Origin: Mycobacterium parmense
GTDB taxonomy: Bacteria > Actinomycetota > Actinomycetes > Mycobacteriales > Mycobacteriaceae
DNA length: 64,000 nucleotides
Assembly: GCF_010730575.1 (NCBI RefSeq)
Contig: NZ_AP022614.1
Coordinates: forward strand, 3,100,001 to 3,164,000
Reading direction: 5' to 3'
Of this stretch, positions 3,231 through 53,432 are shown piece after piece (position 1 is the stretch's first letter; each line of letters begins with the position of its first letter). A model generated the notes under the pieces. The model ran no database searches. It was given only the letters and a program-made list of their open reading frames with translations, and had not been told where the DNA came from. A program made the position numbers and the translations under genes.

Positions 3231-3899
3231 GTGTCCTTCGCCGACGCCACAATCGCGCGCATGCCCCGAGCCGTTCAGCCCTATTTGCTGCGCCACCACG
3301 AGCTGATCAAATTCGCGATCGTCGGCGGCACCACATTCATCATTGACTCCGCAATTTTCTACACGCTCAAGCTGACAATTCTCGAGTCCAAGCCGGTGAC
3401 GGCGAAGGTCATCGCCGGAATCGTCGCGGTCATCGCCTCCTACGTGCTCAACCGGGAGTGGAGTTTCCGCGACCGCGGCGGCCGGGAACGTCACCACGAG
3501 GCGTTGCTGTTCTTCGCGTTCAGCGGCGTCGGGGTCCTGCTGAGCATGGCACCGTTGTGGTTCTCCAGCTACGTCATGCAGCTGCGCGAGCCGATGGTGT
3601 CGCTGACCGTGGAGAACATCGCCGACTTCATCTCGGCCTACATCATCGGCAACCTGCTGCAGATGGCGTTCCGGTTCTGGGCGTTCCGGCGCTGGGTGTT
3701 CCCCGACGAGTTCGCCCGCAACCCCGACAAGGCAATCGAGTCGGCCCTGACGGCCGGCGGCATCGCCGAGATCTTCGAGGACGAGATCGAGACCGGCAAT
3801 GTCACGCTGCTGCGCTCCTGGCGCAACAAGGCGACCAGGGCCGGACGCGTCAATCAGCTGGGTGACTCCTCGGAGCCCAGGGTGTCGAAAACTTCGTGA
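3231..3899 (+). CDS. GtrA-family membrane protein
   Basis: This is a 222-aa integral membrane protein of the GtrA family, which typically moves polyprenyl-linked sugars or supports cell-wall glycan glycosylation. The family signature HELIKFAIVGGTTFIIDSAIFY is split here by residues 23-44; four hydrophobic segments follow, and YVLNREWSF marks the loop after the second one. It corresponds in position to Rv3277, between purK and the PH-domain gene. The GTG start at 3231 is supported by a -10 hexamer 8 nt upstream and the absence of a Shine-Dalgarno, which suggests a leaderless mRNA. Its 3' end overlaps the convergent gene by 46 nt. Its specific glycan partner is unknown. Confidence 0.88.
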   Translation: MSFADATIARMPRAVQPYLLRHHELIKFAIVGGTTFIIDSAIFYTLKLTILESKPVTAKVIAGIVAVIASYVLNREWSFRDRGGRERHHEALLFFAFSGVGVLLSMAPLWFSSYVMQLREPMVSLTVENIADFISAYIIGNLLQMAFRFWAFRRWVFPDEFARNPDKAIESALTAGGIAEIFEDEIETGNVTLLRSWRNKATRAGRVNQLGDSSEPRVSKTS

Positions 3900-4384
3900 T
3901 ATAGCAGCGCGTGCACATCGCGCAGGCGCGGAATGTCGTAGAACTCCAACGGATCCTGTGACGCCGACTCGATGATCAACGTCCCGGTGCGAAACATCCG
4001 CTCGAAAAGGCGGTCCCGGAATTCGACGCTGTTGATCCGAGCCAGCGGAATGTCTATTCCGGTGCGGGTCAGCACGCCGTGCCGGTACATCACCCGGCGG
4101 TTGGTGACCACGAAATGGGTGGTCACCCAGCTCACGAAGGGCCACAGAGTCAGCCAGCCGACAGCGACCAGCCAGATGCCCCAGATGACGCCGTGCACGA
4201 CGTTCTTGGCGAGCTGTTCGAAGTGCGTCGAGTTGACAAACCCGGACGCGAACGACGCCAGCCCCGTTGCCAGGATGAGCACAACCGCGGGCCAGATCAG
4301 CCCCTTCCAGTGCGGGTGACGGTGCAGGACCACCTGCTCGCCGGCGGCCAGGGCGTTGTCCGGGTAGCTCACGCTGACAGACAT
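3854..4384 (-). CDS. PH-domain (YdbS-like) membrane protein
   Basis: This is a 176-aa protein like Rv3278c with two membrane segments (about residues 28-50 and 68-92), followed by a bacterial PH-like domain: VTNRRVMYRHGVLTRTGIDIPLARINSV. That motif is typical of bPH2/DUF304 proteins, whose role is poorly understood and probably membrane-associated. It lies 25 nt downstream of birA on the same strand. Its 3' end overlaps the convergent GtrA-like gene, so the last 15 codons of each are read from opposite strands. Only a weak Shine-Dalgarno precedes the ATG. Confidence 0.85.
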   Translation of the reverse strand: MSVSVSYPDNALAAGEQVVLHRHPHWKGLIWPAVVLILATGLASFASGFVNSTHFEQLAKNVVHGVIWGIWLVAVGWLTLWPFVSWVTTHFVVTNRRVMYRHGVLTRTGIDIPLARINSVEFRDRLFERMFRTGTLIIESASQDPLEFYDIPRLRDVHALLYHEVFDTLGSEESPS

Positions 4385-4409
4385 TAGCCCTGATAGGGGT
4401 GCGCGCCCA

Positions 4410-5228
4410 CTAGCGCAGGTGCACCACGTCGCCGGCCGAGACGACCACGGTCCGGCGCTCGGTGTCGATACACAGCCTGCCCTGGTCGTCGATGCCCGAG
4501 GCGGTCCCGACTATTTGCCTGCCGCCGGGCAGGTGGGCGCGCACGCGGGAGCCGATGGTCAGGCTGCGCGCCTGGTAGTCGGCCGCCAGCGCCCAGTCCG
4601 CCCCGCGTGCGGCGCGCCACGCCACGATCCGCCGGCCGAGCTCGGTCAGCAGGCCGGACACCAGCCGGCCGCGGTCGGGCACCGCGACGCCGAGATCGAC
4701 CAGCGAGACGGGTCTGGTGGCCCCGTCGACCGCCTCCGGGGCCTCAAACACGTTGAGCCCCAAGCCGATCACCACCACCGGCCGCGCGACCTCGGCCAGG
4801 ATGCCCGCCAGCTTGCCCGGCGCGTCGTGCGGGCCGGCCAGCACGTCGTTGGGCCACTTGAGTCCGGTCCGGACGCCGGTGACGGCATGGACCGCGTCGA
4901 CCACCGCGACGCCGGCGGCCAACGACAGCCAGCCCCACCCCTCGGTGGGCACGTCGACGACGCTCACCGCGACCGACATAGTGATCTGGGTCCGCGGGCC
5001 CGACGACCAGCCCCGGCCGTGCCGTCCGCGCCCGGCGGTCTGGTGCTCGGCGATCAGCACGGCCCCGGCGACGTCGGCTCCCGACGCCGCCTGCGCCAGC
5101 AGGTCGGCGTTGGTGGAGCCGGTCTGTTCGACGACGTCGAGCCGGCGCCAGCCCAGCCCCGTACCGATCAGCTCCGCGCGCAGCGCGGCCCGGTCCAACG
5201 GTGCCGGAAGCCGCTCGTGGTCTGTCAC
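4410..5228 (-). CDS. birA: Biotin-protein ligase BirA
   Basis: BirA activates biotin to biotinyl-AMP and transfers it to the lysine of biotin carboxyl carrier domains, such as that of AccA3 encoded at 10999-12792. The GRGRHGRGW biotin-binding loop lies at residues 66-74 and KWPNDV at about 124-129, and the C-terminal SH3-like domain is intact. There is no N-terminal helix-turn-helix, so this is a ligase-only (group I) enzyme and not a repressor. The start codon is GTG. It is followed by the PH-domain gene, as in Rv3279c-Rv3278c, and its clustering with carboxylase genes fits its function. Confidence 0.95.
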   Translation of the reverse strand: MTDHERLPAPLDRAALRAELIGTGLGWRRLDVVEQTGSTNADLLAQAASGADVAGAVLIAEHQTAGRGRHGRGWSSGPRTQITMSVAVSVVDVPTEGWGWLSLAAGVAVVDAVHAVTGVRTGLKWPNDVLAGPHDAPGKLAGILAEVARPVVVIGLGLNVFEAPEAVDGATRPVSLVDLGVAVPDRGRLVSGLLTELGRRIVAWRAARGADWALAADYQARSLTIGSRVRAHLPGGRQIVGTASGIDDQGRLCIDTERRTVVVSAGDVVHLR

Positions 5229-5245
5229 CGGATCCAGCGTAGAAC

Positions 5246-6793
5246 TCAGCGGCGCCGGTCCCGCATGTCCAGGGCGGCCAGGTGGCTGAACAACATGCTG
5301 GTCCCGATGGGATTTCCCCCGCCGGGATAGGCGGTGCCGCTCGGCGCGGCCATCGTGTTGCCCGCCGCGTACAGGCCGGGGATGGGATCACCGGACGCGT
5401 CGAGCACCCGCGCCGCGGTGTCGGTGCGCAGGCCGCCCTTGGTGCCGAGGTCGGACAGGCCGAACGCGGCGGCGTGATAGGGCGGGCGGTCGATGGCCAC
5501 CAGGGGCGACGCGCCCCCGGAGAACGCGCGGTCGAACGCCTCGTCGCCCCGGCCGAAGTCCTCGTCGACGCCGGCGGCGGCAAAGCCGTTGAACCGGGCC
5601 ACCGTGGCGGCCAGCCGCCCGGGCGGCACGCCGATCTTGGCGGCCAGTTCCTCGAGGGTGTCCGCCGTGTGCCACAGCCCGGCCGCGACGTACTTGGCGG
5701 TCTCCACGATGGGGACGTTGGCCGCCTGCACCGGCGGCACCTCGCCCTCCTTGTCGTCGTAGATCATCCAGTACGGCAACGTCATCGAGCCGTCTTGCAC
5801 CCGCGCGATGATCTCGCGGCCGGCGCGGTCGTAGGCCCGGGACTCGTTGACGAAGCGGTCGCCGTCCTGGTTGACGAAGATGCCGCCGGTGAACCACAGC
5901 GCGAAGGCGGACCGGCCGTCGGGATGGGTCATCCCGGGCGACCACCAGGCCTGGTCGAGCAGGTCGGTGTCGCCCCCCGCGGCGATGCCGGCCTGCAGGG
6001 CCAGGCCCTGACTGCCCGGGCCACCCATGGTGTCTCGCGCGACGCCCGGTACGCCGTAGCGGCGCCGCAGCTCGTCGTTGCTCTCGAAGCCGCCGGCGGC
6101 CAGCAACACCCCCAGGCGGGCGCGGATCGCGCGGCGCTCGCCGCCGGTCGCCACGATGGCGCCCGTCACGGCCCCGTCGGACGTCACCAGCTCGACCAGG
6201 GCGGTCTCACGTCGCAACGACGCCGTCGCGTACTGCCCGATGGCCTTGAGGAACCGGGCGATCAGCGCGCGGCCCCCGACGTAGTAGTCGGCCGGCGGTT
6301 CGGCGCCGAGGCGGTCGGTGGCCAGCGGACCGCGGATGGCCTCGCGGAACTCCGGCGCGGCCGCCACCTTCAGCGGCTTGGCGGCGATGTGGCGCTGCCC
6401 GTCGTGCCGCGCCTTCGGGGCCTTGCCGTAGTAGTCGGGCCAGGGCAGCGGCACGAACTTGAGGTTCGGGTCGGCCTCGAGGTACTCGATGAGCGGCGCG
6501 CCGCCGCGGACGAACGTCTCCTGCAGGTCGCGGGGCGTGCGGTCGCCGACGACCGCGTGGTAGTAGGTGAGGGCATCCTCGATGGTGTCGTCGCTGCCCG
6601 CCCTGAGCAGCACCGGGTTGCAGGGGAACCACACGCCGCCCCCGCCGGAGTACGCGGTGGTGCCGCCGAATTTCGAGGTCGCTTCGACCAGGAGCACGTC
6701 GAGGCCCTCGCGCGCGGCGGTGTAGGCGCCGGTGACGCCGCCGCCGCCCGACCCGGCGACCAGCACGTCGTGCTCCTCGGACCAGTCGACCAT
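5246..6793 (-). CDS. KstD-like FAD-dependent oxidoreductase
   Basis: This 515-aa flavoprotein has an N-terminal Rossmann motif (VLVAGSGGGGVTGAYTA, residues 10-26) and GGTTAYSGGGGVWFP, typical of 3-ketosteroid delta1-dehydrogenases and fumarate-reductase-type flavoproteins. The C-terminal GLYAAGNTMAAPSGTAYPG segment closes the FAD site. A steroid or steroid-like ketone substrate is an inference from family resemblance; the substrate is not established. The gene lies between birA and accD5, where I recall no counterpart in M. tuberculosis. It is divergent from accD5 with 73 nt between the starts, so the two promoters may be co-regulated. Confidence 0.82.
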   Translation of the reverse strand: MVDWSEEHDVLVAGSGGGGVTGAYTAAREGLDVLLVEATSKFGGTTAYSGGGGVWFPCNPVLLRAGSDDTIEDALTYYHAVVGDRTPRDLQETFVRGGAPLIEYLEADPNLKFVPLPWPDYYGKAPKARHDGQRHIAAKPLKVAAAPEFREAIRGPLATDRLGAEPPADYYVGGRALIARFLKAIGQYATASLRRETALVELVTSDGAVTGAIVATGGERRAIRARLGVLLAAGGFESNDELRRRYGVPGVARDTMGGPGSQGLALQAGIAAGGDTDLLDQAWWSPGMTHPDGRSAFALWFTGGIFVNQDGDRFVNESRAYDRAGREIIARVQDGSMTLPYWMIYDDKEGEVPPVQAANVPIVETAKYVAAGLWHTADTLEELAAKIGVPPGRLAATVARFNGFAAAGVDEDFGRGDEAFDRAFSGGASPLVAIDRPPYHAAAFGLSDLGTKGGLRTDTAARVLDASGDPIPGLYAAGNTMAAPSGTAYPGGGNPIGTSMLFSHLAALDMRDRRR

Positions 6794-6866: not shown

Positions 6867-8516
6867 ATGACAAGCGTTACCGACCGCTCGGACCACTCCG
6901 CGGAGCCCGCTGCAGAGCACACCGTCGACATCCACACCACCGCCGGCAAACTGGCCGAGCTGCACAAGCGACGGGAGGAGTCGCTGCATCCGGTGGGCGA
7001 GGAGGCCGTCGAGAAGGTCCACGCCAAGGGCAAGCTGACCGCCCGCGAGCGCATTTACGCGCTGCTGGACGAGGATTCGTTCGTCGAGCTCGACGCGCTG
7101 GCGCGGCACCGCAGCAAGAACTTCGGGCTGGAGAGCAACCGTCCGCTGGGCGACGGAGTGGTCACCGGCTACGGCACCATCGACGGCCGCGACGTCTGCA
7201 TCTTCAGTCAGGACGCCACGGTGTTCGGCGGCAGCCTCGGCGAGGTGTACGGCGAGAAGATCGTCAAGGTCCAGGAGCTGGCGATCAAAACCGGCCGACC
7301 GCTGATCGGCATCAACGACGGCGCGGGCGCCCGCATCCAGGAGGGCGTCGTCTCGCTGGGCCTCTACAGCCGCATCTTCCGCAACAACATCGTGGCCTCG
7401 GGCGTCATCCCGCAGATCTCGCTGATCATGGGGGCGGCCGCCGGCGGGCACGTCTACTCCCCCGCGCTGACCGACTTCGTCGTGATGGTCGACCAGACCA
7501 GCCAGATGTTCATCACCGGGCCCGACGTCATCAAGACCGTCACCGGCGAGGACGTCACCATGGAGGAGCTCGGCGGGGCGCACACCCACATGGCCAAGTC
7601 GGGCACCGCGCACTACGTGGCGTCGGGCGAGCAGGACGCGTTCGACTGGGTCCGCGAGCTGCTGGGCTACCTGCCGCCCAACAACTTCACCGACGCGCCG
7701 CGCTTCGCCGAACCCGTGCCCGAGGGCGCGATCGAGGACAATCTGACCGCCGAGGACATCGAGCTGGACACGCTGATCCCCGACTCGCCCAACCAGCCCT
7801 ACGACATGCACGAGGTGATCACCCGCATCCTCGACGAGGACGAGTTTTTGGAGATCCAGAACGGCTACGCCCAGAACATCGTCGTCGGCTTCGGCCGCAT
7901 CGACGGCCGGCCGGTGGGCATCGTGGCCAACCAGCCGACGCACTTCGCCGGCTGCCTGGACATCAACGCCTCGGAGAAGGCAGCCCGGTTCGTGCGAACC
8001 TGCGATTGCTTCAACATCCCGATCGTGATGCTGGTCGACGTCCCCGGGTTTTTGCCGGGCACCGGCCAGGAGTACAACGGCATCATCCGGCGCGGCGCCA
8101 AGCTGCTGTTCGCCTACGGCGAGGCCACCGTCCCGAAGATCACCGTCATCACCCGCAAGGCCTACGGGGGGGCCTACTGCGTCATGGGTTCCAAGGACAT
8201 GGGCTGCGACGTCAACATCGCCTGGCCGACCGCGCAGATCGCCGTGATGGGCGCCTCCGGCGCCGTCGGGTTCGTCTACCGGCAGCAGCTCAAGGAGGCC
8301 GCCGCCAACGGCGAGGACGTCGACACGCTGCGGCTCCAGCTGCAGCAGGAATACGAGGACACGCTGGTCAACCCGTACGTCGCCGCCGAGCGCGGCTACG
8401 TCGACGCGGTGATCCCGCCGTCGCACACACGCGGCTACATCGGTACGGCGCTGCGCCTGCTGGAGCGCAAGGTGGCGCACCTGCCCCCCAAGAAGCACGG
8501 CAACATTCCCCTGTGA
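6867..8516 (+). CDS. accD5: Acyl-CoA carboxylase carboxyltransferase subunit AccD5
   Basis: AccD5 is the 549-aa beta (carboxyltransferase) subunit that moves the carboxyl group from carboxybiotin on AccA3 to propionyl-CoA (and acetyl-CoA), giving methylmalonyl-CoA for methyl-branched lipids. The two crotonase-like halves carry the oxyanion-hole glycine stretches: [13 protein letters not shown] with [14 protein letters not shown] in the first, and [15 protein letters not shown] and [12 protein letters not shown] in the second. Length and sequence match Rv3280. Its stop overlaps the accE5 start by 4 nt, and maf overlaps accE5, so the three are translationally coupled. Confidence 0.97.
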
Positions 8517-9564: not shown

Positions 9565-10455
9565 GTGCCGCTACCCGCCGATCCGGACCCCGCACTCTCG
9601 GCCTACGCCCACCCCGAACGACTGGTCACCACCGACTGGCTGTCCGCCCACCTCGGCGCCCCCGGCCTGGTGATCGTCGAGTCCGACGAGGACGTCCTGC
9701 TCTACGACGTCGGCCACATCCCCGGCGCGGTCAAGATCGACTGGCACACCGATCTCAACGACCCGCGCGTGCGCGACTACATCGACGGCGAGCGGTTCGC
9801 CGAGCTGATGAACCGCAAGGGCATCGCCCGCGACGACACCGTCGTGATCTACGGCGACAAGAGCAACTGGTGGGCGGCCTACGCGCTGTGGGTCTTCACG
9901 CTTTTCGGCCACCCCGACGTGCGGCTGCTCAACGGCGGGCGTGACCTGTGGCTGGCCGAGGGCCGCGAGACCACCCTGGACGTGCCGACGAAGACGTCGT
10001 CCGGTTACCCGGTGGTCGCGCGCAACGACGGGCCGATCCGCGCCTACAAGGACGACGTGCTGGCCATCCTGGGCAGCCAGCCGCTGATCGACGTACGCTC
10101 GCCCGACGAGTACACCGGCAAGCGCACCCACATGCCGGAGTACCCCGAGGAGGGCGTGCTGCGCGGCGGCCACATCCCCACCGCCCGGTCCATCCCGTGG
10201 GCCAGGGCGGTCGACGAGAGTGGGCGTTTCCGCAGCCGCCCTGAGCTCGAAGAGCTCTACGACTTCATCGGACCGGACGACAAGACCGTCGTGTACTGCC
10301 GCATCGGCGAGCGGTCCAGCCACACCTGGTTCGTGCTCACGCACCTGCTCGGCAAGCCCGGGGTCCGCAACTACGACGGATCCTGGACGGAGTGGGGCAA
10401 CACCGTGCGGGTGCCGATCGTCGGCGGCGAAAGCCCGGGAACCGTACCGGCCTGA
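9565..10455 (+). CDS. sseA: Thiosulfate sulfurtransferase SseA
   Basis: SseA is a 296-aa two-rhodanese-domain sulfurtransferase. The catalytic cysteine is Cys245 in the loop CRIGERSS, and the second domain also holds [13 protein letters not shown]. The GTG start at 9565 gives MPLPADPDP, matching my memory of Rv3283, and is preceded by a -10 hexamer at leaderless distance. The next gene starts inside the sseA stop (TGATG) and encodes a SufE-like partner, so SseA may hand persulfide sulfur to SufE for Fe-S cluster or other sulfur chemistry. Confidence 0.95.
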
Positions 10456-10874
10456 TGCCTCTCCCCGCGCCCCTTGCCGAGGTGGTGTCCGACTTCGCCG
10501 AAGTCGAGGGCCAGGACAAGCTGACGTTGCTTCTGGAGTTCGCCAACGAGCTCCCGGCGCTGCCGCCCGACCTCGAAGAGGCGGCCATGGAGCCGGTGCC
10601 CGAGTGCCAGACGCCGCTGTTCATGCACGTCGACGCCAGCGACCCCAACCGGGTGCGGCTGCACTTCAGCGCGCCGGCCGAGGCGCCGACCACCCGCGGC
10701 TTCGCCTCGATCCTGGCCGCCGGCCTCGACGGGCAGCCCGCCGCCGACATCCTGGAAGTGCCCGAGGATTTCTACACCGACCTGGGTCTGGCCGCGCTGA
10801 TCAGCCCGCTGCGGCTGCGCGGAATGTCGGCGATGCTGTCCCGAATCAAGCGCACATTGCGCGAGACCTCCTGA
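10455..10874 (+). CDS. SufE-like sulfur acceptor protein
   Basis: This 139-aa protein belongs to the SufE family, which accepts persulfide sulfur from a desulfurase or sulfurtransferase and passes it on. The conserved cysteine lies in [13 protein letters not shown] and the helical C-terminal part ([19 protein letters not shown]) is typical. The ATG overlaps the sseA stop by one base, so the two proteins are made in coupled fashion; it corresponds to Rv3284, for which I recall a reported SseA-SufE interaction in M. tuberculosis. Confidence 0.88.
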
Positions 10875-10948
10875 AAACGCGCCAAATCCGGCACCGCCTC
10901 GAAGTCCCGACGGCGCGGCGCTTAGACTTCCTCGCAGTCGTAAGAAAC

Positions 10949-10959
10949 TCTCTTAGAGA
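10949..10959. promoter_or_regulatory. Short palindrome upstream of accA3
   Basis: TCTCT-T-AGAGA is a perfect 5-bp inverted repeat about 40 nt before the accA3 start, in an unusually AT-rich 50-nt stretch. It could be a regulator site or simply part of the promoter. Confidence 0.3.
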
Positions 10960-10998
10960 AGCCGCAACCAAGTCTGCAGATACGCCAAAGGAGGCGCA

Positions 10999-12792
10999 GT
11001 GGCTAGTCACGCCAGCTCGAGGATCTCCAAAGTGCTCGTCGCCAACCGCGGCGAAATCGCTGTCCGGGTGATCCGCGCAGCCCGCGATGCGGGCCTGCCC
11101 AGCGTGGCGGTGTATGCCGAGCCGGACGCCGACGCGCCGCACGTGCGCCTCGCCGACGAGGCCTTCGCCCTGGGCGGCCAGACTTCCGCGGAGTCCTACC
11201 TCGACATCGGCAAGCTGCTCGACGCGGCGGCCAAGTCGGGCGCCAATGCGGTCCACCCCGGCTACGGCTTCCTTTCCGAGAACGCCGATTTCGCGCAAGC
11301 GGTGCTCGACGCCGGCCTGATCTGGATCGGCCCCAGCCCGCAGTCCATCCGCGACCTCGGCGACAAGGTCACCGCCCGCCACATCGCCGCGCGCGCCCAG
11401 GCCCCACTGGTGCCCGGCACCCCCGACCCGGTCAAGGACGCCGACGAGGTGGTGGCCTTCGCCAAGGAATACGGCGTGCCGATCGCCATCAAGGCCGCCT
11501 TCGGCGGCGGCGGGCGCGGGATGAAGGTGGCCCGCACCCTCGAGGAGATCCCGGAGCTGTTCGAGTCGGCCACCCGGGAGGCCGTCGCGGCGTTCGGCCG
11601 CGGCGAATGCTTCGTCGAGCGCTACCTGGACAAGCCCCGCCACGTCGAGGCGCAGGTGATCGCCGACCAGCACGGCAACGTCATCGTCGCCGGCACCCGG
11701 GACTGTTCGCTGCAGCGCCGCTTCCAGAAGCTGGTCGAGGAGGCGCCCGCGCCGTTCCTGTCCGACGCGCAGCGCAAGGAGATCCACGAGTCGGCCAAGC
11801 GCATCTGCAAAGAGGCCCACTATTACGGCGCCGGGACCGTCGAGTACCTGGTCGGCCAGGACGGGCTGATCTCGTTCCTCGAGGTCAACACCCGACTGCA
11901 GGTCGAGCACCCGGTCACCGAGGAGACGGCGGGCATCGACCTGGTGCTGCAGCAGTTCAAGATCGCCAACGGCGAGAAGCTCGACCTCACCGAGGATCCG
12001 ACGCCCCGCGGCCACGCCATCGAGTTCCGGATCAACGGCGAGGACGCCGGCCGCGGCTTCCTGCCCGCCCCGGGTCCGGTCACCCGCTACGACATCCCCA
12101 CCGGTCCCGGCGTGCGGCTGGATTCCGGGGTCGAGGCCGGCTCGGTGATCGGCGGCCAGTTCGACTCGATGCTGTCCAAGCTGATCGTCTACGGCGCCAC
12201 CCGCGAGGAGGCGTTGGCCCGCTCCCGCCGCGCCCTGGACGAGTTCCACGTCGAGGGGCTCGCCACGGTCATCCCGTTCCACCGCGCCGTGGTCCGGGAC
12301 CCGGCGTTCATCGGTGACGACGACGGCTTCTCGGTGCACACCCGCTGGATCGAGACCGAGTGGAACAACACCGTCGAGCCGTTCACCGGCGGGGAGTCCA
12401 TCGACGAGGAGGACACCCGGCCTCGGCAGAAGGTGGTCGTCGAGGTCGACGGCCGTCGGGTCGAGGTGTCGCTGCCCGGTGACCTCGCGATGTCCGGGGG
12501 CGCCGCCGACCCGGCCGGCGTGATCCGCAAGAAGCCCAAGCCGCGCAAGCGGGGCGCCCACGCGGGCGCGTCGGCCTCCGGCGACGCCGTGACCGCGCCC
12601 ATGCAGGGCACCGTCGTCAAGGTCGCTGTCGAGGAGGGACAGCAGGTAGCCACCGGCGACCTCGTGGTGGTCCTCGAGGCGATGAAGATGGAGAATCCGG
12701 TCACCGCGCACAAGGACGGCACCATCACCGGCCTCGCGGTCGAAGCCGGCGCCGCCATCACCCAGGGGACTGTGCTCGCCGAGATCAAGTGA
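10999..12792 (+). CDS. accA3: Acyl-CoA carboxylase alpha subunit AccA3 (biotin carboxylase and carrier)
   Basis: AccA3 is the 597-aa biotinylated subunit shared by mycobacterial acyl-CoA carboxylases. Residues 1-450 are biotin carboxylase, with [13 protein letters not shown] at the N terminus, the glycine-rich [14 protein letters not shown] lid and [14 protein letters not shown]. The C-terminal carrier domain has the biotinylation site EAMKMENP with Lys563. The GTG start is preceded by a strong AAAGGAGG site 4 nt upstream. It is the partner of AccD5 and AccE5 encoded just upstream and the substrate of BirA. Confidence 0.97.
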
Positions 12793-12811
12793 TCCGCGGG
12801 CCAGGCTGAAC

Positions 12812-12838
12812 GTTGTCGGCTGGGCCACACGCGGGTAC
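12812..12838 (+). promoter_or_regulatory. SigF-like promoter upstream of the STAS gene
   Basis: GTTG, a 17-nt spacer and GGGTAC resemble the mycobacterial SigF consensus (GTTT, 15-17 nt, GGGTAT). It would give a 5' leader of about 130 nt before the STAS start at 12974. Its position next to sigF strengthens the case, but the -35 and -10 each carry a mismatch. Confidence 0.4.
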
Positions 12839-12973
12839 TGTTCAATCAGGTTGAGTTCACAGCCGTCCGGATCACGTCGGGAGACGCGGCCGGGGGCTGA
12901 ATTCCCGGGCCCCCCAGCGCCACCACTTCGGCGTCCTCCCCAGCACATCCTCCTCTTACGCAGGGAGTCGGCA

Positions 12974-13402
12974 ATGTCTGTGGCCCAACCGCGGCAATAC
13001 AGCCACACGGCGCAGTTCACCGCTCGATGGGACGCGTCCGGTGCCACCGTCATCACCGTCGACGGCGAGCTCGACGCCTCCAACGCCGATCAGCTGGCCG
13101 CCTACGTCCAACACGGCATCACCCGTTGCCGGCGGGTGGTGCTGGACCTTCGCGGCTTGAAATTCATTGGCACTGCTGGTTTTTCGGCATTGCACCGGAT
13201 CAACGTGGTGTGTTCGGGCGCGCAGGCGCACTGGGCCATGGCGCCCAGCGCGGCGGTGGCCAGGTTGCTGCGCATCTGCGATCCCGACGGCACCCTGCCG
13301 GTGACGACACCGCGCGACGAGCCGTTGCTGGGGTCCAGGACCTTCGACGGCAGCGACGGCGAACCCGAAGCGCTACTCCAACTGGTCGCGGAGCCGCGCT
13401 AG
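12974..13402 (+). CDS. STAS-domain anti-anti-sigma factor
   Basis: This 142-aa protein is a single STAS domain. VITVDGELDASNADQLAAYV and VVLDLRGLKFIGTAGFSAL match anti-sigma antagonists such as SpoIIAA, RsbV, RsfA and RsfB, with Thr67 at the usual phosphorylation position (GTAG). It probably binds an RsbW-type anti-sigma factor, and the neighbouring one is the obvious candidate. The ATG at 12974 has GGGAG 8 nt upstream; an in-frame TTG at 12851 would add 41 residues of unlikely sequence. Its last 30 nt overlap the 3' end of sigF on the opposite strand. I recall no such gene here in M. tuberculosis. Confidence 0.88.
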   Translation: MSVAQPRQYSHTAQFTARWDASGATVITVDGELDASNADQLAAYVQHGITRCRRVVLDLRGLKFIGTAGFSALHRINVVCSGAQAHWAMAPSAAVARLLRICDPDGTLPVTTPRDEPLLGSRTFDGSDGEPEALLQLVAEPR

Positions 13403-14161
13403 CGACTTGGCCAGCAACCGGGAGACGTGCATCTGCGAAATGCCGACCCGCTCGGCGATCTGTGTCTGCGTCATCGACTCGAAGAACCTGAGCACCAACA
13501 CCGCTCGCTCCCGCTCCGGCAGCGCCTCGAGCAGCGGGCGCAGCGACTCGCGGTCCTCGATCCGGTCGAGACCGGTGTCCACGTCGCCGAGGGTGTCGGC
13601 GATGGCGCGCGCCTCCTCTTCCTCGCTGCCGCCGCCGCTGTCGATGGACAGGGTGTTGTAAGAGCTGCCCGCCACCAGGCCCTCGACCACCTCGTCGCGG
13701 TCCATGTCGAGTTCGGCGGCGAGTTCGGTTGCGGTGGGCGCCCTTCCGAGCCGTTGGGACAGATCCGCGGTGGCGGTGCCCAGCCGCAGGTGCAATTCCT
13801 TGAGGCGCCGCGGAACCTTCACAGACCAACTGTTGTCGCGGAAGTGGCGGCGGACCTCGCCCATGATCGTGGGGACCGCGAACGAGACGAAGTCGGACCC
13901 GGTCTCGACGTCGAAGCGGACGACCGCGTTGACCAGTCCCACCCGCGCCACCTGGATCAGGTCGTCGCGCGGCTCGCCGCGGCCCTCGAACCGGCGGGCG
14001 ATGTGGTCGGCCAGCGGCAGGCAGCGCTCGACGATCTTGTCCCGCTGACGCTGATATTCCATCGAACCGGCGGTGACGCCGGTCAGCTCACGGAACATCT
14101 CCGGGACATCGGCGTATTCGTTCGGGCGCGAAGCCGAACCGCCGGCAGCGCGCGATGTCAC
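13373..14161 (-). CDS. sigF: RNA polymerase sigma factor SigF
   Basis: SigF is a 262-aa alternative sigma factor (SigB/SigF/SigG group) controlling stress and stationary-phase genes. Region 2 includes PRDDLIQVARVGLVNAVVRFD and the FVSFAVPTIMGEVRRHFRD stretch; region 4 ends with TQTQIAERVGISQMHVSRLL. The GTG start at 14161 overlaps the rsbW stop by 4 nt (GTGA) and gives the length expected from the 261-aa M. tuberculosis protein; an upstream start would fuse unrelated residues. RsbW, encoded just upstream in the same operon, holds SigF inactive. Confidence 0.96.
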   Translation of the reverse strand: MTSRAAGGSASRPNEYADVPEMFRELTGVTAGSMEYQRQRDKIVERCLPLADHIARRFEGRGEPRDDLIQVARVGLVNAVVRFDVETGSDFVSFAVPTIMGEVRRHFRDNSWSVKVPRRLKELHLRLGTATADLSQRLGRAPTATELAAELDMDRDEVVEGLVAGSSYNTLSIDSGGGSEEEEARAIADTLGDVDTGLDRIEDRESLRPLLEALPERERAVLVLRFFESMTQTQIAERVGISQMHVSRLLAKSLARLRDQLE

Positions 14162-14595
14162 CTGCTGGAGGCCGCCCGTCGCGCCGTCAGCGTGATACCG
14201 AAGACGCTTCCGGTTTCGTCGGGTTCTCGACCGTCGTGGAACGTGCGCACGTCGTCGGCCAACGATGTCAGGACATGCCAACTGAAGCTGCCCGGCGACA
14301 CCACGTCGTGGGTGTCACAGGCCGCGGACGCCTCGACCACCAATTTGTCGTCCTGCGGGTCGACCACCACAACGAGCGTCGCGTCCGGGGTGGCCGAGCG
14401 GATCAGCCGGGTGCACACCTCGTCGACCGCAAGCCGCAGGTCGGCCACCGCGTCGAAATCCAGGTCCGCGAAGGTGCCGATGGCACCCACCAGCGTGCGC
14501 AGCATGGCGAGGTTCTCCAGTCGGGCCGCGACGTGCAATTCGACGGCACGGCGGCCCCGTTGACGCTTGCTCACACGCAATCCCGTTTCGTTCAT
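14158..14595 (-). CDS. rsbW: Anti-sigma factor RsbW/UsfX
   Basis: This 145-aa GHKL-fold anti-sigma factor sequesters SigF. The N box region DLRLAVDEVCTRLIRSA is clear, and the C terminus reads GSVFGITLTARR. The ATG at 14595 has GGGAGA about 5 nt upstream and gives exactly the length I recall for UsfX; the reading frame is open for 27 more codons upstream but they look non-coding. It is translationally coupled to sigF. Antagonists would be STAS proteins such as the one encoded at 12974-13402. Confidence 0.94.
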   Translation of the reverse strand: MNETGLRVSKRQRGRRAVELHVAARLENLAMLRTLVGAIGTFADLDFDAVADLRLAVDEVCTRLIRSATPDATLVVVVDPQDDKLVVEASAACDTHDVVSPGSFSWHVLTSLADDVRTFHDGREPDETGSVFGITLTARRAASSR

Positions 14596-49684: not shown

Positions 49685-50677
49685 GTGGACCACGTGTCGC
49701 TGCCCGGGATCGGCCCGCTGCCCCTGTACGGGTTTCAGCGTCCGGCCCTGCTGCTGTTCGCGCTGATCCCGGTCGCGCTGCTCGCGGTTTACGTCCTCGT
49801 TCAGGCCCGGCGCCGCCGCCGGCTGCGCCGGTACACCGAGGCCGAGGTGCCGCAGTCGTTGTGGCGGCACCTGCCGATCGCGGTGTCGCTGCTCGCGCTG
49901 CTGCTCTTGACGGTCGCCCTGGGCACGCCGACCCACGACATGCGCATTCCCCGCAACCGGGCGGTCATCATGCTGGTGATCGACATGTCCAACTCCATGC
50001 GGGCCACCGACGTCGACCCCAACCGGCTCAAGGCCGCCGAACAGGCCGCGAGCCAGTTCGCCACCCAGCTGACGCCGGGGATCAACCTCGGGCTCGTGGC
50101 GTTCGCGGGAACGCCATTCCTGCTGGTGCCCCCCACGCCGCAGCACCAGGCGACCGTCGACGCCCTGAAGAAGCTCGACTTCGCCGACAGCACGGCGACC
50201 GGCGAGGCCATCTTCACCGCCCTGCACGCGATCAGCGCCACGGCCGTGGCCGGCGGCGACACCCCGCCGCCCGCCCGCATCGTGCTGCTCTCCGACGGCG
50301 GCGAGAACAAGCCGTCGGACCCCAACGATCCGCACGACGGGGCCTACACCGCGTCCCGCCTGGCCAAGGACCAGGGCGTGCCCATCTCGACGATCTCCTT
50401 CGGGACGCAGAGCGGCGAGATCGAGATGGAAGGCCACCGCATCGCGGTCCCCGTCTCGACGGACCAGATGAAGATGATCGCCAAGTTGTCGGGCGGTCAG
50501 TCCTACACCGCCACCAACCTCAAGGAGCTGGAGAAGGACTACAACGCCATCGAGAACGAGATCGGGTATCGCACGGTGCCCGGCCCCGGCAGCTCGGGGT
50601 GGCTGCGCCTGGCCGTCGTCACCGCGCTGGTCGCGGCGGCGCTGGGGCTGTTGATCAACCGGCGGCTGCCCGCCTGA
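49685..50677 (+). CDS. VWA-domain membrane protein (UPF0353 type), copy 1
   Basis: This 330-aa protein has two N-terminal helices (residues 21-41 and 64-81), a von Willebrand A domain with the MIDAS motif DMSNS (about residues 99-103) and a C-terminal helix ending LLINRRLPA. It resembles Rv1481, the BatA-like protein encoded near moxR genes. No MoxR ATPase or DUF58 gene is nearby. The GTG at 49685 has GGGAAGG upstream. The gene converges on a paralogue with 4 nt between the stops. The role is probably assembly or chaperoning at the membrane, by analogy only. Confidence 0.87.
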   Translation: MDHVSLPGIGPLPLYGFQRPALLLFALIPVALLAVYVLVQARRRRRLRRYTEAEVPQSLWRHLPIAVSLLALLLLTVALGTPTHDMRIPRNRAVIMLVIDMSNSMRATDVDPNRLKAAEQAASQFATQLTPGINLGLVAFAGTPFLLVPPTPQHQATVDALKKLDFADSTATGEAIFTALHAISATAVAGGDTPPPARIVLLSDGGENKPSDPNDPHDGAYTASRLAKDQGVPISTISFGTQSGEIEMEGHRIAVPVSTDQMKMIAKLSGGQSYTATNLKELEKDYNAIENEIGYRTVPGPGSSGWLRLAVVTALVAAALGLLINRRLPA

Positions 50678-50681
50678 GGAA

Positions 50682-51689
50682 CTAGGCCGGCAACCTGCGG
50701 TTGAGCAGCAGACCCGCCAGGATCGCGCCGGCCATGACGACCGCGCCGAGCAGCATCCAGGCCAGGCTGGCATCCCCCTTGACGGTTTCGTAGCCGATCT
50801 GGCGCTGCAGCGTCGTGTAGACCTGCTTCAGCGACTCCAGGCTGTCGGCGTGGAAGGCCTGGCCGTCGGTGATCTCGCAGATCTTCTGCAGGGTCTGGTC
50901 GTCCACCGGGACGGGGATCGTGGCACCCTCGAAGACGACCGTGCCGTCCGGCGTCCCGAAGGAGATCGTCGAGATCTGCACCCCCTCCGATTTGGCTGCC
51001 CGCGCTGCGGTGAACGCGCCCTGGGGGGCGTTGGGGTCCAGCGGCACGTTCTCGGCGCCGTCGGACTCCAGCACGATCCGCGCCGGCGGCGGGCCGTCAC
51101 CGCCGCCCATCACCGAGCCCACCGTCGCGATCGCCTGCAGCGCGGTGAAGATGCCCTCGCCCGTCGCGGTCTTGGGTGCCGGCTGCAGGCTGTCGATGCC
51201 CGCCTTCACCGCCGCGCGGTTGGTGGTCGGCGGGACCAACAGCGTGGCGTTCGCCGCGAACTCCACCAGCCCGAGGTTGATGGCCGGCGTCAGCTCGCTG
51301 GCGAACTGCTTGCCCGCCTCCTTGGCGGCGTCCAGCCGGGTGGGGGCGACGTCGGTGGACGCCATCGACTCCGAGACGTCGATGACCAGCATCACGACCG
51401 CGCGGTTCAGCGGAATCCGGACGTCGGAGGTGGGCCCGGCCATCGCCGTCGTCAGCAGCACCAGCGACGTGGCCAGCAGGATGGTCGGCACGTGCCGCCA
51501 CTTGCTCGGCCGCGCCGGCGCGACCCGCTCGAGCACCTCCATGTTGGCAAACCGCAGCACCCGCCGGCGCCGCGCGAACTGTTGGGCCACGTAGCCGACC
51601 ACAACCAACGCCACGACCAGCAGAAACAGGAAGAACCAGGCGTTCTGGAAGCCGGTGAGCGACACGGGGCCCAGCAGGGGCAACTTCAT
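50682..51689 (-). CDS. VWA-domain membrane protein (UPF0353 type), copy 2
   Basis: This 335-aa paralogue starts [20 protein letters not shown], with membrane helices near residues 18-38 and 60-77, the MIDAS motif DVSES and a C-terminal helix ending LLLNRRLPA. It is closer to Rv1481 than copy 1 is, and has its exact length. The ATG at 51689 follows TACTGT by 8 nt on the minus strand. It is divergent from the TIR gene, so both may be expressed under related conditions. Confidence 0.88.
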
Positions 51690-51697
51690 GTCCAGCC

Positions 51698-51703
51698 ACA
51701 GTA
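51698..51703 (-). promoter_or_regulatory. -10 hexamer of a leaderless promoter for VWA copy 2
   Basis: On the minus strand TACTGT ends 8 nt before the ATG at 51689. Confidence 0.45.
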
Positions 51704-51917
51704 TTCGTCGAGAGCCGACGCTGCACGCGCCCCGCGCGGGCGAAGCCGGGGCGCGAGATGGAACATTCGCGGGCCCGCCGCGGGCGAGCCGGCTACGTTC
51801 CCGGGTTGACCGGGCCACTTTGGTCCGCCAAGCACCCCGTCGACCGGGTATTCTCCTGCTCTATCGGCGGCTGGTGTGGGGCGTGTGGCCGACGTCGAGC
51901 GCGTGAGGGAGGCCGTG

Positions 51918-53432
51918 ATGGGTCTTTTTATCAGCTACGCCAGCCGCGACAGGCGGGCCCTCGACGGCCTCATGGCGGCGTTCCAACGGGCCCACCTGCA
52001 GGTCTGGCTGGACGAGGAACTGGGCGGCGGCGAGGCGTGGTGGCGCGTGATCCTCGAGCGGATCCGCGACTGTGACGTCTTTATCGTCGCGTTGTCGAAC
52101 AACTCGCTGGCGTCGAAGCCGTGTCAGGCCGAACTCCGCTATGCCCAGGCGCTGCAGCGGCCCATTCTGCCGGTTCAGGTCGGCCCGCTCGACAGCATGC
52201 GCCTCAACCCGCTGTCCACCATGCAGATCATCGACTACCGGAACCCGAGCGTCGACACCGGCATCCAACTGATCGCCGCCGTGCACGAGCAGCGGGCGCG
52301 GGTGGGCCCGCTGCCCTCGCCGCTGCCCGACGAGCCGCCGGTGCCGTTCGCCTACCTGATGCGGTTGGCCGTCACGATCAAAGACCCCGTACTCAGCGCT
52401 CGCCAGCAGTCCGAGTTGGTGTCGGAACTCAAGTCCGCGCTCGACGAAGACGGCGACGACCCGGCCGCCCGGCGCGATCTCACCCAGCTCCTGTGCATGC
52501 TGCGCGACCGCCCCGACGTCACCTACCGCACCCGAACCGACGTCGAGAGCATCATTGCCTCGATGAACGCGGCGGAACCCGCGTCCGGCCCCACCCCACA
52601 GCCTCCGTTCCCCCCCGGCCCGTTCCCACCACACACCTCGGGGCCGTTCCCAAGCCAGGGCGGGGGCCCGCCCCCGCAGCCTTTCACGGGACCGGCGCGG
52701 CCACCGTTTCCGGGCCCGACCCAGCATCCGGCCCCGACGGGTCGGCGGTCCCGGACGACATGGATCCTCGCCGGCGCCGGCGCCCTGGTCGCCGTCGTCG
52801 CGATAGTAATTGCGGCCGTGGTGTTTTGGCCGCACCCGCATCCGACGACGAAAGTCGTCAAGGCCGAGCAGCTGGACTCGATCCTGCTCACCGCCAGCGA
52901 CCTGAACTCCATCATGGGCACCTCGAACATGCAGCAGATCTCGTCGAGCCATCAGATGGCCACCGCGCCGACGCTGTCGGATCCCAGTTGCGCCGGCGCG
53001 GCTGACACCGAGGAACTCACGGCCTATCAGGGCAGTGACTATCAGGCCGTGGCCGACCGGTACGTGCGCGAACCCGGCACCCAATTCGACCATGTCGTGG
53101 TCGAGGCCGCGGTCACGTTCTCGTACGCCCCCAACGCCCCCGCGTTCGTGCGGTCTTCCGCCGACAAGTGGAAAGCCTGCGCCGGAAAGACCGTGACGAA
53201 GACGCAGCCCGACGGGAAAACCTCGCAGTGGGGCTTCGCCGACGTCGTCGACAACGACACGAAGATCAGCGTCACGTCGTCGCAGGAAGGCTATGTCTGG
53301 AGCTGCCAACACACCCTGAGCACGGTGGCCAACGTCGTCATCGACGCCAACGCCTGCGCCGAGCACGTGACCAACGAAGGCACTCAGATCGCCGACAAGA
53401 TCGCGACCAACGCGACCAACGCCGCGAAGTAG
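51918..53432 (+). CDS. Transmembrane TIR-domain protein with a PknH-type extracellular domain
   Basis: This 504-aa protein starts with a TIR domain (residues 1-125: LFISYASRDRRALD, LQVWLDEELGGGEAWW, and SNNSLASKPCQAEL with Glu72 at the position of the NADase glutamate). A helical segment (about 143-216) and a Pro-rich linker (221-275) lead to one helix (282-303). The outer part (305-504) starts DSILLTASDLNSIMG and has four cysteines, as in the sensor domain of the kinase PknH. It looks like a receptor in which TIR replaces the kinase. The ATG has AGGGAGG 6 nt upstream. Binding partner and activity are unknown. Confidence 0.85.
   Translation: MGLFISYASRDRRALDGLMAAFQRAHLQVWLDEELGGGEAWWRVILERIRDCDVFIVALSNNSLASKPCQAELRYAQALQRPILPVQVGPLDSMRLNPLSTMQIIDYRNPSVDTGIQLIAAVHEQRARVGPLPSPLPDEPPVPFAYLMRLAVTIKDPVLSARQQSELVSELKSALDEDGDDPAARRDLTQLLCMLRDRPDVTYRTRTDVESIIASMNAAEPASGPTPQPPFPPGPFPPHTSGPFPSQGGGPPPQPFTGPARPPFPGPTQHPAPTGRRSRTTWILAGAGALVAVVAIVIAAVVFWPHPHPTTKVVKAEQLDSILLTASDLNSIMGTSNMQQISSSHQMATAPTLSDPSCAGAADTEELTAYQGSDYQAVADRYVREPGTQFDHVVVEAAVTFSYAPNAPAFVRSSADKWKACAGKTVTKTQPDGKTSQWGFADVVDNDTKISVTSSQEGYVWSCQHTLSTVANVVIDANACAEHVTNEGTQIADKIATNATNAAK

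Follow-up and report, generated by a model that had tools for sequence, protein, structure and literature searches.

A gene of Mycobacterium parmense, located at positions 51918..53432 (+) of the 64,000-nucleotide stretch of contig NZ_AP022614.1 analysed here (the window), encodes a 504-residue transmembrane protein in which a TIR domain is joined to an external domain of the type found in the Ser/Thr receptor kinase PknH. In many relatives, the receptor gene adjoins one that encodes a membrane protein with a ryanodine-receptor (RyR) domain. Since Thoeris TIR proteins are reported to make nucleotides of the cyclic adenosine diphosphate ribose (cADPR) type and phage RyR domains to bind them, a TIR receptor encoded beside an RyR protein looks like a messenger circuit. 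Our preferred reading is that an envelope signal causes the TIR domain to make a messenger derived from nicotinamide adenine dinucleotide (NAD), which the RyR membrane protein reads; we consider this plausible, if somewhat less than evenly probable. A broader proposal, which we put forward tentatively and regard as rather doubtful, is that mycobacterial transmembrane TIR receptors with kinase sensors (of the PknH, PknD, and perhaps PknE types) use an NAD-derived cyclic nucleotide to gate an RyR-domain membrane channel, as a bacterial counterpart of cADPR-to-ryanodine-receptor signalling.

The gene and the parts of its product are laid out as follows (the host genome is a single contig of 5.95 Mb).

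51905..51912 (+): Shine-Dalgarno-like GAGGGAGG, read from the sequence, with the ATG 5 bases downstream
51918..53432 (+): whole gene, 504 residues, in the order TIR, four-helix module, Pro-rich linker, membrane helix, PknH-type ectodomain (translation, Pfam, AlphaFold2, and a 120-row alignment)
51921..52298 (+): TIR domain, residues 2-127
52131..52133 (+): codon of Glu72, the supposed catalytic glutamate, invariant in 120/120 rows and opposite E74 of the TIR protein Cat1
52350..52574 (+): four-helix module, residues 145-219, helical in the AlphaFold2 model and a conserved partner of the TIR domain
52575..52763 (+): Pro-rich linker, residues 220-282, from sequence and low model confidence
52764..52820 (+): membrane helix, residues 283-301, from Kyte-Doolittle hydropathy
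52857..53405 (+): PknH-type ectodomain, residues 314-496, with four invariant cysteines (358, 421, 463, and 480)

An earlier note, written from the DNA letters, had proposed a TIR domain in residues 1-130, a Pro-rich linker, a single membrane helix, and a PknH-like four-cysteine ectodomain, and each of these parts was confirmed. The N-terminal domain matches the curated TIR model PF13676 far above its cut-off (residues 4-109, E 1.6e-20) and is predicted to adopt a TIR fold. The ectodomain matches the PknH sensor model PF14032 equally clearly above its cut-off (residues 314-496, E 2.1e-41), superposes in the AlphaFold2 model on the PknH sensor structure 4ESQ at 1.2 A, and carries four cysteines for two disulfides; both models on which the note had staked its proposal are thus matched. 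Residues 283-301 form the sole segment of the receptor with a 19-residue Kyte-Doolittle mean above 1.6 (2.84), and the predicted local distance difference test score falls below 50 at linker residues 224-251 and 253-289. No kinase model appears among the Pfam matches of the receptor up to E 1, which places it outside the PknH Ser/Thr receptor kinases and rules out a misannotated kinase. A chance or spurious reading frame was likewise rejected, as 120 rows align along its full length.

This alignment comprises the receptor and 119 homologues that are 47-56% identical to it; no row departs from the receptor at Glu72, Asp32, Ser6, Ser66, or any of the four ectodomain cysteines. The closest solved TIR domain by sequence is that of Cat1 (E 0.0023), in which S7, D33, S68, and E74, aligned with S6, D32, S66, and E72 of the receptor, line the NAD hydrolase (NADase) site; according to the available part of the Cat1 study (PMC12162218), none of the mutants D33A, S68A, and E74A still arrested growth in cells. 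Judged by its residues, the receptor therefore has the conserved glutamate and the pocket positions of catalytic TIR NADases. Glutamate at the position of Glu72 is also widespread beyond the alignment: among 249 proteins collected from the protein searches, the TIR model matches 239, and the glutamate is retained in 232 of the matched domains. The other 7 have leucine and all belong to a TIR-thioredoxin group, whose eighth member (P0246) keeps the glutamate, as do three further TIR-thioredoxin proteins (P0157, P0221, and P0227); the leucine-bearing proteins are perhaps pseudo-enzymes.

The architecture is not rare. A total of 559 protein clusters match the receptor at E <= 0.001, both Pfam domains are present in all 120 listed, and many listed homologues carry the source-database name 'serine/threonine kinase PknH', with named relatives mostly from Mycobacterium or Mycolicibacterium. 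The search across mycobacteria that the earlier note had suggested yielded 38 single-stretch, nearly full-length matches in 37 of 198 genomes of the genus, and six further genomes with both parts in one frame by our local models, giving at least 43/198. A draw of 151 genomes of the family included 10 from the own genus, and none of the others held the TIR domain and the PknH ectodomain together. The receptor gene seems to decay in some lineages: the two parts lie in different frames at five loci (L065, L079, L080, L081, and L082), and a stop interrupts the four-helix stretch in two 3.27-Mb genomes (G075:C1:2380769-2381011 and G115:C1:2615442-2615708). A phage or plasmid origin was considered and ruled out, as no phage matched and none of the 23 matching records among the plasmids searched covers over 80% of the query; the 20 plasmid matches listed cover the ectodomain part.

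The TIR domain is followed by a Pro-rich lead-in beginning at about residue 129 and by four predicted helices (residues 145-154, 161-178, 182-196, and 203-219), which form again when the module is folded alone. The module has no Pfam match, and its fold returned nothing at E <= 0.001 in Foldseek and merely middling helical bundles in VIA. Our local models revealed that the TIR and four-helix cassette occurs joined to several other parts. Two further cassette genes of the host genome combine it with a DUF308-like multi-helix membrane part (a sub-threshold Pfam match) and with an RDD membrane domain, respectively. At one locus (L083, 1885-3558, +), the cassette and a membrane helix precede an NHL beta-propeller that matches the solved sensor of PknD, 1RWI, with E 9e-54; at another (L084, 1578-3080, -, with database relatives P0240-P0247), they precede a thioredoxin-type ectodomain, which we take to resemble the PknE sensor. 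Further combinations are with a guanylate cyclase and AAA (L064 and L087) and with TPR and PknH_C (L086). A protein search with the propeller protein added FHA, TPM, and other partners of the cassette, and its matches without a TIR domain include PknD-like kinases (kinase plus NHL). Proteins of about 620 residues that match residues ~129-500 of the receptor at first seemed to share the module; those fetched proved to be ordinary PknH-like kinases in which the ectodomain alone was found.

TIR cassettes fused to FHA domains were observed in P0155, P0159, P0176, P0177, and others. FHA domains bind phosphothreonine, and it is possible that these fusions bridge kinase and TIR signalling. Another type of transmembrane TIR receptor is encoded in the host genome at about 2.92 Mb (L050, G000:C1, 4352-6259, -), with a CHASE2 sensor, membrane helices, and a C-terminal TIR domain.

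The relationship between kinase-linked and TIR-linked sensors was examined in an ectodomain tree of 78 TIR, 8 kinase, and 14 other rows, which has long branches and no known root. As its 'OTH' label takes in three ectodomains of broken TIR genes (L065, L081, and L082), which inflates the counts of changes, we use the placings of P0057 and L086 alone. The ectodomain of P0057, a metagenomic TIR homologue, falls inside the clade of the 8 PknH kinase ectodomains, which likely reflects a sensor swap or else a metagenomic chimera; that of L086 groups with a TIR-less sensor protein. From these two placings, TIR and PknH-type sensors were probably joined on more than one occasion, although the metagenomic origin of P0057 calls for caution. 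Our reading is that kinase-type sensors are common to phosphorylation and TIR outputs, with the cassette as the putative alternative output.

We then turn to the genes around the receptor in its relatives. Twenty orthologue loci with flanks were taken from the 37 genomes and chosen before their neighbours were viewed. An RyR-type neighbour of one of two kinds, c1 or c17, adjoins the TIR gene in 19 of the 20 (L095 has neither): c1 at 16 loci, with about 790-950 residues where whole and cut short or split in two loci, and c17 at 3 loci, with about 600 residues. The arrangements include tandem, divergent, and convergent pairs, and in 12 tandem loci that were measured, from the longest open start, 11 gaps of 39-237 bases and one overlap were found. 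Two loci with common flanking genes and a TIR gene (L111 and L112) differ in their neighbour, one having c17 and the other c1. All three scanned c17 proteins match TrkA_N and RyR (PF02026) over the cut-offs, and among the three scanned c1 proteins one RyR match lies over the cut-off, one at 27.3 vs 27.4, and one at 23.3. Comparison with hhalign shows the two kinds to be homologues, with 595 aligned columns and a probability of 99.9%. Both also match solved animal RyR domains by sequence: the E values for an RyR1 chimera and for RyR3 are 8e-16 and 1.4e-8 with c17, and 1.7e-6 and about 1e-4 with c1. By hydropathy, these neighbours have one to four N-terminal membrane segments, and the RyR domain lies towards the protein end, in roughly the final 200 residues; the three RyR partners scanned had no match in PADLOC.

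A nucleotide-binding role for these RyR domains is suggested by a 2026 preprint (PMC13232231), the available part of which reports that the phage protein RyDEP cleaves cADPR isomers with the ligand residues H75, W78, and H100 and the catalytic D117, that its homologues sequester cADPR isomers by binding them, and that Thoeris TIR proteins make such cyclic nucleotides. An H-x-x-W motif with a further His at +25, a spacing equal to that of RyDEP H75, W78, and H100, is kept in 13 of 14 c1 proteins, the remaining one having no motif match; H-x-x-W also occurs in 4 of 7 c17 proteins, without His at +25. At +42 from the first His, the position of D117 by spacing alone, none of the 13 motif-bearing c1 proteins has Asp (N in 10, and I, V, and S in one each), so that hydrolysis by the c1 RyR domain looks unlikely.

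To quantify the linkage, RyR places in the 198 genomes were counted with PF02026 (a local RyR model built from two sequences misses c1-type RyR domains and was not used for the counts), and all Fisher values given here ignore phylogeny. The four-helix model found 66 places in 57 genomes, after removal of four hits that were second pieces of a gene already counted. PF02026 marks 85 places, spread over 74 genomes, and its score exceeds the cut-off at 69 of these places. An RyR place lies within 3 kb of 49 of the 66 module places (upstream in the same orientation for 39, divergent for 8, and convergent for 2), and RyR is present in 53 of the 57 module-bearing genomes (p 5.6e-26). Furthermore, a TIR_2 match is present in 100 of the 198 genomes and in 73 of the 74 RyR genomes (p 5e-30); the RyR match of the one lacking it (G089) is sub-threshold. 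Another 36 RyR places lie away from the module. At 24 of these, a local model detects a different TIR gene within 6 kb; one further place, in the host genome, is about 5.9 kb from a TIR gene by its coordinates, another (in G193) 6.0 kb, and 10 have no TIR gene in the stretch fetched, several of these being near contig ends. TIR-bearing genomes hold 1-12 TIR matches, and by our very rough estimate 0.5-3% of randomly chosen genes would be within 6 kb of such a match. In the family draw, a genome of another genus (G198) has an RyR place about 1 kb from a TIR place. In general, TIR without RyR is common, whereas few genomes have RyR but no TIR. We ruled out that RyR is a neighbour by chance, as it recurs in several arrangements and beside other TIR genes.

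In the host genome itself, the receptor is an orphan. Pfam detects two RyR places there and the local two-sequence model a third; they lie at about 4.034-4.053 Mb, 0.9 Mb from the receptor gene, and cluster around a gene for a 1488-residue TIR protein with WD40-like repeats (assigned by eye).

L181 (G000:C1:4030000-4049000) 3626-5641 (+), 7663-8334 (-), and 9820-14286 (+), and L182 5762-8575 (-): RyR/TIR cluster of the host genome

The RyR genes and the 1488-residue TIR protein represent a second kind of TIR-RyR pairing. That the receptor signals to these distant RyR proteins by a diffusible nucleotide is a conjecture.

Taken together, these observations are consistent with a one-component envelope receptor that would work as follows. 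By analogy with PknH, the external domain would bind an envelope ligand in its cleft, and binding would alter, by way of the one membrane helix and the Pro-rich linker, how the receptors associate. The cytoplasmic cassettes may then gather as oligomers that complete the TIR active site, as in other TIR proteins, and the TIR domain would cleave NAD+ with Glu72, releasing an ADP-ribose-type nucleotide, most likely a cADPR isomer. In many relatives, this messenger would be read by the RyR domain of the RCK-type, channel-like protein encoded next door, which might then change ion flux or membrane permeability, as gene linkage and the binding of cADPR isomers by phage RyR domains suggest. As the window gene has no RyR neighbour, the M. 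parmense receptor would have to address RyR proteins from other parts of the genome, or else exert its effect just by consuming NAD. The suggestion of the earlier note, that an envelope sensor here could answer through NAD hydrolysis or TIR-based signalling and not through phosphorylation, fits all of this evidence, with NAD cleavage itself a prediction.

Several observations weigh against the messenger circuit. Catalysis, ligand, messenger, and channel function are inferred. Catalysis is not needed by every TIR cassette, as the leucine branch illustrates, and the scaffold TIR of MyD88, a weak match in sequence, matches the receptor TIR nearly equally in fold. On the side of the partner, two of the three scanned c1 proteins stay under the Pfam RyR cut-off, and a T-x-G-[YF]-G filter was found in none of the 21 RyR proteins checked, so that the predicted channel function is not certain. 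The linkage has gaps as well: 17 of the 66 module places have no RyR neighbour, none of the three cassette genes of the host genome is near RyR, and no RyR protein is among the four nearest window genes scanned. Moreover, one gene order is common to 11 of the 20 orthologue loci, the linkage statistics being uncorrected for phylogeny, and in the family draw TIR_2 was matched in 43 genomes and RyR in 8, one of which (G331) has RyR without TIR_2.

Among the alternatives, the TIR domain could be an NAD-depleting effector of a receptor that senses envelope damage, for example by phage, and halts growth without any messenger. The conserved catalytic positions would suit this, and Cat1 acts in this way in the part of its description cited above (PMC12162218). 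The receptor TIR also has weak matches to PADLOC models of defence TIRs, namely ThsB (local matches, the best with 26.5 bits over residues 43-84, in models without a curated cut-off) and Aga; the NCBIfam model ThcB4 gives 17.6 bits vs a cut-off of 220. However, NAD depletion leaves the tie to RyR unexplained, the searches returned no phage match and no whole plasmid copy, and the single chromosomal gene order at 11 of 20 loci is unlike typical mobile defence genes. We regard this alternative as unlikely, and the genomic tie to RyR membrane proteins favours the messenger version of TIR output.

We judge it similarly improbable that the TIR domain is an enzymatically inactive scaffold, recruiting partners through TIR-TIR or four-helix contacts in the style of Toll-like receptors. 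The predicted TIR fold superposes about equally on catalytic TIRs, a Hydra receptor TIR, and MyD88; since it fits catalytic and scaffold TIRs alike, the case for catalysis rests on residues and not on fold. However, a pure scaffold would have no need of the (nearly) invariant Glu72 and other pocket positions, and the RyR linkage points to a nucleotide. Least probable, and in our view quite improbable, is that the RyR protein is an off-switch that binds or degrades the TIR product while the real effector of the receptor lies elsewhere: phage RyDEP and its homologues, in the portion of the preprint available, do cleave and sequester cADPR isomers (PMC13232231), but an RyR domain placed late in a large membrane protein (with TrkA_N in c17, to which c1 is homologous) is the layout of a gated protein and not of a soluble sponge, and 13 of 13 motif-bearing c1 proteins lack Asp at the position that spacing assigns to D117.

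Closest to the receptor gene in the window are two VWA genes (of which the VWA/BatA-type one is divergent from it), a cupin gene convergent with it, and a gene for a GntR regulator. The two VWA genes, one of them BatA-like, are convergent with each other and lie just upstream of the TIR gene (49685-50677, +, and 50682-51818, -).

The earlier note knew of no described mycobacterial system of this type, which agrees with our searches: in the largely non-subscription literature searched, mostly at the level of listed entries, there was no description of the TIR-PknH architecture or of the TIR-RyR linkage, and no paper joined PknH, the TIR domain, and mycobacteria. An article on nucleotide-centred systems published by Burroughs and co-workers in 2015 may already treat prokaryotic RyR domains together with TIRs. 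A survey of TIR domains notes actinobacterial TIR groups, and the word mycobacteri* is absent from its available part (PMC7075850).

If the messenger circuit is real, bacterial receptors filed as 'PknH kinases' or 'sensor domain proteins' would use NAD chemistry and not phosphorylation, and the sensors of mycobacterial kinases would be exchanged between signalling chemistries. Moreover, simple biochemistry could then address a cADPR-type messenger and an RyR-domain membrane protein side by side in bacteria, with a bearing on the debated link of cADPR to animal ryanodine receptors.

Compared with known systems, the receptor recalls Toll-like and IL-1 receptors, which are single-pass proteins with a cytoplasmic TIR domain, the opposite domain order, and an unrelated ectodomain. 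The resemblance is one of layout, and the TIR domain is N-terminal in the protein described here. Receptor kinases of the PknH type share the ectodomain fold, the four cysteines, and the succession of linker, single membrane helix, and external domain, whereas the TIR domain and four-helix module here take the place of their kinase; the PknH sensor has two disulfides and a conserved cleft whose ligand is unknown, according to the available part of a review (PMC3601408). Thoeris, as far as its excerpted description goes (PMC11204291), likewise pairs a TIR gene (ThsB) with a membrane protein (ThsA of the TM-macro form) bearing a kind of domain that binds ADP-ribose-type nucleotides. In contrast to Thoeris, the TIR protein here is the transmembrane receptor, with an external sensor of its own, no ThsA (SIR2-SLOG or TM-macro) is among the four nearest window genes, and the recurrent partner in relatives is an RCK-type protein with an RyR domain instead of a macro domain. 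Cat1, the CARF-TIR NADase of type III CRISPR, for which an active site formed by two TIRs is reported, has its pocket residues at matching positions; it is switched on inside the cell by cyclic tetra-adenylate in the part of the study available (PMC12162218), whereas the receptor is predicted to respond to an external signal. Finally, the RyR domain of the neighbour proteins belongs to the same family (PF02026) as phage RyDEP and the R12 domain of animal RyR and keeps H-x-x-W, and it differs from RyDEP in being part of a bacterial RCK-type membrane protein, where it would be a putative cADPR-binding domain.
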